A stretch of DNA of 64,000 nt from Adhaeribacter rhizoryzae. Its GTDB lineage: Bacteria; Bacteroidota; Bacteroidia; Cytophagales; Hymenobacteraceae. The translations under genes and the position numbers were made by a program. The stretch lies in the NCBI RefSeq assembly GCF_008629685.1, contig NZ_VWSF01000006.1:1-64000 (forward strand), read 5' to 3'. Below the pieces are notes generated by a model that ran no database searches, was not told the origin of the DNA, and worked only from the letters and a program-made list of their open reading frames with translations. The first letter of the stretch is position 1; each line of letters begins with the position of its first letter. This document shows positions 16,228 through 18,661 of the stretch, one piece after another.

Positions 16228-16545
16228 ATGGCACAAGTACCTGCATCTATTGTAACCCGTAACATGGCTGATTTTGCCGACGAAACAGGTAACGTTTACG
16301 AATCGGTAGCTATTATTTCGAAGCGGGCCAACCAGATTTCGGTTAAAATAAAAGAAGAGCTGAACTCGAAATTAGCTGAGTTTGCTACTACCGTAGATAA
16401 CCTGGAAGAAGTTTTCGAAAACCGCGAGCAAATCGAAATATCTAAATATTACGAGCGCATGCCGAAGCCTACTAACCTGGCCGTAGAAGAATTTCTGGAA
16501 GGAAAAGTATTCTACCGGATGCCCGACGAAGAAGAGGCTGAATAA
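16228..16545 (+). CDS. rpoZ: RNA polymerase omega subunit (Bacteroidota type)
   Basis: A 105-residue RpoZ/Rpb6-like protein that supports assembly of RNA polymerase through the beta-prime subunit. The core helix pattern NVYESVAIISKRANQISVKIKEELNSKL corresponds to the omega signature of the AxxxARR type. The C-terminus is acidic and Bacteroidota-specific (YYERMPKPTNLAVEEFLEGKVFYRMPDEEEAE). Position between bamD and coaBC is the standard order. coaC starts 8 nt after its stop. Confidence 0.88.
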   Translation: MAQVPASIVTRNMADFADETGNVYESVAIISKRANQISVKIKEELNSKLAEFATTVDNLEEVFENREQIEISKYYERMPKPTNLAVEEFLEGKVFYRMPDEEEAE

Positions 16546-16553
16546 TTTAGCGC

Positions 16554-17120
16554 ATGCTTCGGCAGAAAAAGATTATTCTGGGCGTTTGCGGGAGTATTGC
16601 GGCTTATAAAGCGGCGCTATTAACCCGTTTGCTCGTTAAAGCAGAAGCAGAGGTGCAGGTAATCCTGACCGCCTCTGCTTCTGCTTTTATAACCCCTTTA
16701 ACTTTAAGCACGCTCTCCAAAAAACCGGTATTAACTGAGTTTACCAAAAATGATGGTTCCGGCGAATGGCACAACCACGTAGATTTAGGCCTATGGGCCG
16801 ATGCCCTGGTAATAGCGCCCGCCAGTGCCAATACCCTGGCTAAATTGGCTAACGGCTTTTGCGATAATCTCTTGTCGGCGGTTTATTTATCGGCGCGCTG
16901 TCCGGTTTTTTTGGCACCGGCCATGGACCTGGATATGTATGCCCATCCGGCGGTAACTGCCAACAGGCAAAGACTCCAATCGTACGGCAACACCTTGCTG
17001 GAAGCCGGTTACGGTGAGCTGGCCAGCGGTTTGGTAGGGCAGGGGCGTATGGCCGAACCCGAAGAAATTATCCATGTACTCCAGCAGCACTTCCGCCTTG
17101 CCGACTCCCGCTTCGCTTAA
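16554..17120 (+). CDS. coaC: Phosphopantothenoylcysteine decarboxylase half of CoaBC (CoaC)
   Basis: A 188-residue flavoprotein that decarboxylates 4'-phosphopantothenoylcysteine on the way to CoA. FMN-binding GSIAAYKAA lies at 13-21 and catalytic His75 is in HNHVDL. The two other E. coli Dfp landmarks are changed: Asn125 of PAMN is Asp (APAMDLDMY) and Cys158 of ACGDIG is Ser (LASGLVGQGRM). Those changes may be normal in this phylum. In most bacteria this domain is fused to CoaB. Here a stop at 17118-17120 ends the protein in the linker, and the CoaB half follows in the +1 frame with a 47-bp overlap. Confidence 0.85.
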   Translation: MLRQKKIILGVCGSIAAYKAALLTRLLVKAEAEVQVILTASASAFITPLTLSTLSKKPVLTEFTKNDGSGEWHNHVDLGLWADALVIAPASANTLAKLANGFCDNLLSAVYLSARCPVFLAPAMDLDMYAHPAVTANRQRLQSYGNTLLEAGYGELASGLVGQGRMAEPEEIIHVLQQHFRLADSRFA

Positions 17121-17763
17121 AAACAAAAAAATATTACTTACTGCCGGCCCCACTTACGAGCCGATCGATCCGGTGCGCTTTATTGGGAATCATTCTACCG
17201 GAAAAATGGGTTATGCTTTAGCCGAGGCATTTGCCCGCGCCGGTGGCCAGGTAATATTAGTCAGCGGCCCTACTACTCAAAAAGCCGAGCACCCAGCCAT
17301 TCAGGTTATTCCGGTAACCACCGCCGACCAGATGTATGCCCAGGTAAAACAACACGCCGATGATGCTGATATTTTGGTATTTGCCGCGGCCGTAGCCGAT
17401 TACAAACCCAAAGAAGTTTCGACGGTTAAAGTGAAGAAGAAAGAAGAAACGCTCACGTTGGAACTGGTAAAAAACGTAGATATTGCCAAAACCATTGGCC
17501 AAACCAAAAAGCCGGGGCAGTTTACAGTGGGTTTTGCCCTCGAAACCGATAACGAAGTGGAAAACGCCCGGGCTAAGCTACAGACTAAAAATCTGGATTT
17601 GATCGTTTTAAATTCGTTGCAGGATGTCGGGGCTGGTTTTAAGCACGATACGAATAAAATCACCATCATTCAAAAAGATAAAATAACTATCTTTGATTTA
17701 AAGCCCAAGACCCAGGTAGCGGCCGATATTGTAAATTTTATCTCCGAGAGAATTCATGTTTAA
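17074..17763 (+). CDS. coaB: Phosphopantothenate-cysteine ligase half of CoaBC (CoaB)
   Basis: A 229-residue ligase that joins 4'-phosphopantothenate and cysteine, using CTP in most bacteria. Motifs are complete: ILLTAGPTYEPIDPVRFIG, NHSTGKMGYALAEA, AAAVADYKP, VKKKEETLTLELVKNVDIA and GFALETDNEVENA. The first codon (ATG 17074) lies inside coaC, in the +1 frame, and the first 15 residues (MYSSSTSALPTPASL) make a plausible leader or linker. The frame is also open upstream of this ATG, so a frameshift during translation cannot be excluded. The end overlaps the DUF4835 gene by 8 bp. Confidence 0.85.
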   Translation: MYSSSTSALPTPASLKNKKILLTAGPTYEPIDPVRFIGNHSTGKMGYALAEAFARAGGQVILVSGPTTQKAEHPAIQVIPVTTADQMYAQVKQHADDADILVFAAAVADYKPKEVSTVKVKKKEETLTLELVKNVDIAKTIGQTKKPGQFTVGFALETDNEVENARAKLQTKNLDLIVLNSLQDVGAGFKHDTNKITIIQKDKITIFDLKPKTQVAADIVNFISERIHV

Positions 17764-18661
17764 ATATATATTATGCGGGTTAATATTGTGGTTAGGCTGC
17801 CGGCAAGTGCAAGCCCAGGAACTGCAGTGCGATGTAATTATTAACTCGGATCAGGTGCAAATTCAGGACCGGCGGGTGTTTACCGATATGCGCAACGCGG
17901 TTTCGAATTTTATGAATAACCAGCGCTGGACCAACGAAACTTACCGGCCCGAGGAACGCATTAAATGCCGCCTGCTCATTACTATAACCCAGGCCCCGCA
18001 GATTGGCTCCTACAACGCCATTGCCCAAATTGTAACCAGCCGGCCGGTTTACGGTACCGGGTACGAAACGCCATTGCTGTCGCTCGTAGACCGGAGCTGG
18101 GCGTTTGATTACATCGAGGCGCAGCCGCTGCAATTTTCCGAAAATACTTTTACTTCTAACCTGGCCTCGCTCTTATCTTTTTACGCTTACCTGGTGGTGG
18201 GCATGGACCGCGATAGCTTTGTGCGGCTGGGCGGCTCGCCGTATTACGACCGGGCTTTGCAAATAATGAATAATGCCAGCACCCAGGCGCCGAATACCAC
18301 AGGCTGGAAATCGGCGGACGATACCCGCAGTCGTTACTGGATGCTGAACAATTTGCAGGACCCGCAACTGGAAGGATTCCGGGTGGCGCAATATTTATAT
18401 TACCGGCAAGGCATGGATATTTTTATTCAGAAACCCGAAGATGCCCGGAAGAATATGGTCGAGGCCATAAAAAATATTCAGCAGGTTTTTCAAATCAGGC
18501 CCGGCGCGCCTATTCTGCGTTCTTTCTTCGAAACCAAAGCCGACGAAATTGTATCGGTATTTAAAGGTGCCAACCCACCCGAAAAGCAGGCCGTTTACGC
18601 CATGCTCTCCCAAATAGATCCCACTAATATTACCAAGTACCAAACCATTATCCAGCGCTGA
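17756..18661 (+). CDS. DUF4835 family protein (PorD-like)
   Basis: A 301-residue exported protein. The signal peptide ends near residue 20 (RQVQAQ). The mature part opens with ELQCDVIINSDQVQ and includes the family hallmarks DMRNAVSNFMNNQRWTN and LASLLSFYAYLVVGMDRDSF. It then has a predicted helical C-terminal half. This family is confined to Bacteroidota; some annotations link it to type IX secretion (PorD), which I cannot confirm from sequence. It overlaps coaB by 8 bp and is followed by a nested hairpin region. Confidence 0.85.
   Translation: MFKYILCGLILWLGCRQVQAQELQCDVIINSDQVQIQDRRVFTDMRNAVSNFMNNQRWTNETYRPEERIKCRLLITITQAPQIGSYNAIAQIVTSRPVYGTGYETPLLSLVDRSWAFDYIEAQPLQFSENTFTSNLASLLSFYAYLVVGMDRDSFVRLGGSPYYDRALQIMNNASTQAPNTTGWKSADDTRSRYWMLNNLQDPQLEGFRVAQYLYYRQGMDIFIQKPEDARKNMVEAIKNIQQVFQIRPGAPILRSFFETKADEIVSVFKGANPPEKQAVYAMLSQIDPTNITKYQTIIQR

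Follow-up and report, generated by a model that had tools for sequence, protein, structure and literature searches.

The split coaBC of Hymenobacteraceae: separate coaC and coaB genes, in four genera overlapping with start codons kept in the overlap and probable translational coupling

Fused and separate forms of CoaB and CoaC

CoaB and CoaC are fused in most bacteria into a single protein, CoaBC. For mycobacteria, one report presents this fusion as a requirement for CoaB to dimerise and to function, and states that in CoaBC of M. smegmatis the linker interacts tightly with both domains (PMC7794376). Separate CoaB and CoaC enzymes are known already from Streptococcus and Enterococcus, as stated in the portion of a second report that deals with these organisms (PMC12570885). 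No paper on a coaBC split in Hymenobacteraceae was found in the open-access literature that was searched.

Two described processes provide points of comparison for the junction between such genes. Termination-reinitiation requires overlaps or very short gaps, and the abstract of PMC10666635 discusses overlaps of 4 and 1 nt; in the gene pairs concerned the start lies within about 25 nt of the upstream stop, and these pairs often encode subunits of one complex. The +1 frameshift of prfB has a slippery CTTT and an SD-like element upstream among its features, in the part of PMC12421855 that describes it. The open-access papers on frameshifting that were examined do not name coaBC, and those in which coaBC and frameshift both occur treat other matters to judge by their titles.

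The coaC/coaB locus of Adhaeribacter rhizoryzae

The window, i.e. the whole stretch of DNA analysed (64,000 nucleotides), belongs to a draft genome of 53 contigs. The features of the locus are given below; signed positions (-66, -42, -22 and others) are counted from the first base of the CoaB TAGPT codon.

16228..16545, forward strand: rpoZ-like gene (RNA polymerase omega; PF01192), directly upstream of coaC and present in most relatives
16554..17120, forward strand: coaC, phosphopantothenoylcysteine decarboxylase (flavoprotein half of CoaBC), 188 aa, TAA at 17118-17120
17074..17763, forward strand: coaB, phosphopantothenate-cysteine ligase half of CoaBC, in the +1 frame relative to coaC, TAA at 17761-17763, 229 aa if ATG 17074 is the start
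17074..17120, forward strand: overlap of the coaC and coaB frames, 47 bp
17098..17100, forward strand: TTG, candidate alternative start of CoaB, 20 nt upstream of the CoaC stop, at -42 and thus within the zone from -45 to -27
17115..17120, forward strand: GCT TAA, final CoaC codon and stop; the counterpart bases G at -25 and T at -23 and -22 are found in 76 of 76 genomes
17756..18661, forward strand: porD-like gene (DUF4835, type IX secretion; NF052317, 343.7 bits), downstream of coaB and present in most relatives

The sequence-only reading of this locus had described coaC and coaB as two complete halves in overlapping genes of different frames, had placed the change in the linker, and had left four explanations: a split into two working cistrons linked through their overlap, a change of one base in the linker, a ribosomal frameshift or a sequencing error. 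The description is confirmed with respect to the coordinates, the stop codon and the length of the overlap. Both halves are complete, with Pfam PF02441 (Flavoprotein) covered from 1 to 161 of 162 positions by coaC and PF04127 (DFP) from 1 to 186 of 186 by coaB. On the 392 positions of TIGR00521, CoaC matches 2-179 and CoaB 181-391, so that both domains are homologous end to end and the cut sits in the linker, where it had been presumed.

Compared with bifunctional CoaBC (Dfp, TIGR00521; 6TGV), both halves belong to the same family and have the same neighbours in most relatives, but two reading frames and a cut linker stand in place of one chain. In Streptococcus and Enterococcus, too, the two steps have an enzyme each (CoaB, TIGR02114; CoaC, TIGR02113), although these are of a different lineage. 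The best solved-structure match of CoaC is CoaBC 6tgv, over residues 4-182, and CoaB matches 5int (E 2.2e-48), the E. coli-type CoaB 1u7u (E 1.3e-40) and, at E 3.8e-16, 2gk4, a streptococcal structure. CoaB scores 81.2 bits on TIGR02114 (cut-off 217.2) and CoaC 153 on TIGR02113 (cut-off 261.4), and neither passes. Acquisition of streptococcal-type coaB and coaC genes is ruled out by profiles, PDB matches and synteny.

Genome-wide, each domain has a single match, and a second copy of coaBC sought in the 53 contigs was not found. The predicted structure of CoaC has a mean pLDDT of 92.8 with a last helix at 169-187, the block of residues 181-188 standing at 77. The two proteins would be expected to act as ordinary CoaC and CoaB. 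Profile matches identify bamD, rpoZ, porD and recN near coaC and coaB in the window. The coaB and porD-like frames also overlap, by 8 bp (17756-17763), and coaC, coaB and porD thus overlap in series.

Distribution and origin of the split

All 131 family genomes whose junctions were read at sequence level are split; none is fused, and in none does a single frame span both halves. These junctions comprise the 84 of 84 from the window's genus (g1), g2, Rufibacter (g4), Pontibacter (g5) and g6, and 47 of 120 from Hymenobacter (g3), the latter (43 and 4 more) being a non-random draw from among the best-scoring matches. Several split genomes are given as single-contig assemblies. A CoaB match was obtained in 204 of 204 family genomes, and among the 150 matches listed for these (hand count), the open frames measure 216-354 aa, which is too short for a fusion. 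The comparison with other family genomes proposed at the outset returns a split in every junction read.

Outside the family, the fused form prevails. In a set of 80 named loci, nearly all from Bacteroidota, 79 hold both halves, 67 of them fused, 10 split and all within the family, and 2 split in Bacteroidales MAGs. An order-wide search of 241 genomes gave a match in 202; among the 150 matches listed, 121 are from outside the family (hand count), and 116 of these lie in frames of at least 398 aa. Among the five short non-family frames, that of G218 is a true split, that of G306 meets a contig end and that of G352 is one frame with both motifs. The remaining two, L215 (G399:C1) and L216 (G407:C3), are additional CoaB-like genes whose own frame carries no CoaC motif; each of their genomes has a long-frame copy as well.

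The true split belongs to family f16, of which both genomes are split: in L214 (G218) an in-frame stop is followed by an ATG 6 nt on, and in L221 (G234) the genes overlap in another frame. On a tree of 71 rows, Hymenobacteraceae form one starred clade, with Hymenobacter and g6 beside the other four genera. A common origin of the f16 split and the family split was considered and is not favoured, as f16 does not join the family on this quick tree with long branches; the f16 split is probably a second, separate event. In the two Bacteroidales MAGs (L050, L088), coaBC has a frame offset of 2 next to runs of 10-11 A, and no ATG, GTG or TTG occurs in the open coaB frame before TAGPT; these junctions would reflect assembly error or slippage, unlike the split of the Hymenobacteraceae type.

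The surroundings and the linker bear on the origin of the split. The genes bamD, rpoZ and porD are each near 10 of 10 named split loci and 8 of 8 loci of the window's own genus. Among 47 Hymenobacter loci, rpoZ is found in at least 46, porD in 47 and bamD in at least 34, and among 70 other named loci the numbers are at least 60, at least 64 and at least 58, all counts being minima as some loci end short of the neighbours. Fused and split loci mostly have the same neighbours, from which it follows that the gene was split where it stood. In fused relatives, the linker has a modal length of 21 residues (51 of the 64 parsed among 72 loci scanned). When one base is skipped, the split linker of L156 and L008 likewise has 21 residues by hand count; it is longer by one residue in the Pontibacter examples and by two in the window. 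These lengths fit the proposal of a single-base change in the linker as the origin of the split. Probably, one base was inserted in the interdomain linker, and the simplest account would be a single ancient split in the ancestor of the family.

Two junction layouts

The family exhibits two kinds of junction. In Hymenobacter and g6, coaC and coaB are apart or overlap by 4 bases (ATGA). Hymenobacter CoaC mostly ends soon past its last helix, and coaB may have any relative frame; CoaB starts at -15 (MRVLITAGPT-like) with ATG in 45 of 47 genomes and TTG in 2 of 47. In g6, an ATG occupies -15 in 5 of 8 genomes, and the other 3 of 8 (L148, L151, L155) have the ATGA stop-start overlap.

In the window's genus, g2, Rufibacter and Pontibacter (76 genomes, window included), CoaC extends several residues further than in Hymenobacter, and in 75 of 76 genomes its stop lies at -22, inside the coaB frame, with TAA, TAG and TGA all in use. 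The exception is L129 (G170), with a run of 9 T where four relatives have 8. The extra T places the CoaC TGA on the GTG of coaB (GTGA), so that GTT TAA is no longer read in the CoaC frame; it may be either a genuine change or a homopolymer error.

Start codons kept within the overlap

An open in-frame ATG, GTG or TTG is present from -45 to -27, or 5-23 nt before the stop position at -22, in 76 of 76 genomes across four genera, and the set of start positions changes 22 times on the tree of these genomes. Under a simple null model in which the codon columns of coaC evolve independently at fitted rates, 24.0 of the 76 genomes would be expected to have no start (minimum 6 in 1000 runs), against 0 observed (P<0.001). 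Eight control triplet sets (200 runs each) display no such depletion (P 0.155-1.0); a further control on the remaining frame carries no information, all 76 genomes being without a start, observed and expected alike. The zone, like the CoaC tail examined below, was picked after the sequences had been viewed. With a zone of -39 to -27, two genomes are without a start (L002, which is the window, and L003) against 32.0 expected (P<0.001), and with -54 to -27 there are 0 against 23.3 (P<0.001).

The codon columns replaced an earlier null with single sites (300 runs) and were followed by frequencies specific to each genus, since pooled frequencies can inflate the expectation. On its own codon frequencies, Pontibacter alone has 0 of 50 genomes without a start against null means of 11.3-19.7, with P<=0.001 in all four settings (two windows by two root settings). 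The test is marginal in the window's genus with g2 (P 0.04-0.12). Rufibacter, with a null mean of 0.0 and P 1, carries no information because its TTG at -27 never varies.

The place of the start is variable even within one genus. In Pontibacter, 27 genomes have only GTG at -39, 20 have only NTG at -36, 2 have both and 1 has neither; this last genome holds the sole ATG at -27 of the genus. Overall, ATG is found in the zone in just 3 of 76 genomes, and GTG or TTG elsewhere. A constant presence together with a wandering place looks like the mark of a needed start codon.

In the window, CoaB had been proposed to begin at ATG 17074. The frame is open from there, but this ATG lies at -66, and an ATG at -66 or -69 is confined to four genomes (L002-L005), the window's own and those of three close relatives, each of which also has a GTG or TTG inside the kept zone. 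The start of CoaB in the window may instead be TTG 17098.

Coupling of CoaB to CoaC

The tail of CoaC appears to be kept open as well. Among 217 changes in its codons, 6.0 nonsense changes would be expected under neutrality and 0 are seen (Poisson P 2.5e-3). An early CoaC stop occurs only in L129, by way of the inserted T, and the new stop falls on the start codon. Ribosomes seem to need to reach a stop located 5-23 nt past the CoaB start, and we infer translational coupling of CoaB to CoaC. Among the four explanations initially offered, the split into two working, overlap-coupled cistrons has the best support, from both the kept starts and the nonsense-free tail.

CoaB is most likely begun separately inside the end of coaC, probably by termination-reinitiation, after fission of an ancestral coaBC. 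The fused gene would have been cut in the ancestor of the family, probably once and probably by one base added to the interdomain linker, leaving two genes since then. In the layout of the four genera, CoaC would be translated to a stop inside the coaB frame, a few codons past the ATG, GTG or TTG at which CoaB would initiate, and ribosomes that have just completed CoaC would restart on CoaB; here we infer reinitiation in preference to de novo initiation. The plain starts of Hymenobacter and g6, together with the GTGA overlap of L129, are in agreement with such a restart. As in known overlapping reinitiation pairs, the start is near the upstream stop, and this is conserved in 76 of 76 genomes. 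Such pairs usually overlap by 4 or 1 nt, whereas the overlaps amount here to 8-26 nt (starts at -27 to -45), or to 47 nt from ATG 17074, and the start drifts and is mostly non-ATG.

The restart has weak points. It does not call for the invariant G at -25, and Hymenobacter CoaC mostly ends without the tail that carries it. The T-poor context after the CoaC stop resembles one in which poor termination is favoured. Only 3 of 76 starts are ATG, and the test itself combines a zone chosen post hoc with a simple null.

The last CoaC codon and the question of a +1 frameshift

All 76 genomes have GTT or GCT as the codon before the stop position at -22, and G at -25 and T at -23 and -22 are invariant. 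The G at -25 undergoes zero changes on the tree, against 3-17 changes at each of the other first codon positions in the CoaC end. Position -19, directly after the stop, is T in just 1 of 76 genomes. Codons for N, S or D after the stop end in C 32 times and in T once, in genomes that are related and therefore non-independent; in CoaB overall, the share of C in such codons is 55% (g1 26%, g2 44%, Rufibacter 60%, Pontibacter 58%). T is avoided after the stop as if poor termination were favoured. An invariant GYT and a T-poor stop context would be features of a shift site, and restart does not explain them. Another idea is that Val or Ala at the CoaC C-terminus is a candidate docking residue or degradation signal.

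These features fit the frameshift option of the sequence-only reading, while the kept start codons disfavour it. In a programmed +1 frameshift, slippage at GYU-URR would yield two products at a fixed ratio, CoaC by itself and CoaC fused to CoaB. Besides the unchanging G and T bases, which would give a conserved codon and stop at the shift site, and the avoidance of T, it is favoured by a CoaC stop that stays at -22 in 75 of 76 genomes, also in the 13 of 76 with another stop two codons downstream, by a third-position pattern that is of coaC type up to the stop and of coaB type only beyond, and by the shifted products of L156 and L008, which have the modal linker length of fused relatives (hand count).

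Other observations do not agree with a shift. Start codons kept in 76 of 76 genomes beyond the null would not be needed for it, and this test moved the balance from frameshift to separate start. After a slip of one base, the tRNAs that read GUU and GCU cannot pair again at the first codon position, which counts against a +1 shift. There is no slippery CTTT run (GYTT instead), and no SD-like or purine-rich element common to the genera was found in columns judged by eye. Each third position between -19 and +38 has undergone 11-30 changes, with no constrained downstream stimulator seen, and the folds of four junctions are not clearly above shuffles (z 1.11, 0.23, 0.32 and -1.32). The site would be unusable in L129, if its extra T is real, and in Hymenobacter, in g6 and in L214 of f16 CoaB plainly has a start of its own. 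Whether alone or beside restart, a programmed +1 frameshift is considered unlikely.

With prfB, the junction shares a sense codon and stop at a fixed place, a downstream frame at +1 and a termination context that avoids T. It differs in lacking both the CTTT and a shared SD-like element, in using all three stops and in keeping start codons in the downstream frame. It is rather improbable, yet conceivable, that GYU-URR is a new kind of +1 site in four genera, lacking the prfB-type slippery run and SD-like element; three products would then arise, namely CoaC, some CoaBC fusion and free CoaB from GTG or TTG.

Other explanations

Two separate starts could also exist without coupling, CoaB being initiated de novo and the overlap being a relic. 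The kept start codons would suit this explanation equally, and in Hymenobacter CoaB can start from an ATG well past the CoaC stop. However, an uncoupled tail, absent from Hymenobacter, should gain early stops, of which 6.0 were expected by substitution and none was seen; the one early stop, in L129, comes from an inserted T. Nothing would then require the stop to stay at -22. An uncoupled start is accordingly held to be quite improbable.

An assembly error, pseudogene or strain-specific lesion, for which one could invoke the draft state of the window genome and the single-base T-run difference that L129 displays among the records, has practically no probability left and is refuted by the split in 131 of 131 family genomes read, several of them single-contig, by a third-position excess on either side of the junction and by the lack of another copy found in the genome.

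Significance and annotation

What appears to be new is that a fused essential enzyme has been divided between overlapping and probably coupled genes, with turnover of the start codon inside the overlap, as the 22 changes of position set illustrate. A family without the fusion in every genome read, and with two junction layouts, constitutes a natural experiment on whether the fusion is important and on the way in which an essential gene of this kind can be divided without loss.

The split also affects gene naming. With a cut-off of 219.7 on TIGR00521, the CoaB half passes (224.8) and the CoaC half falls below (195.3). As the 'bifunctional CoaBC' model is passed by the CoaB half alone, such genes may be misnamed.
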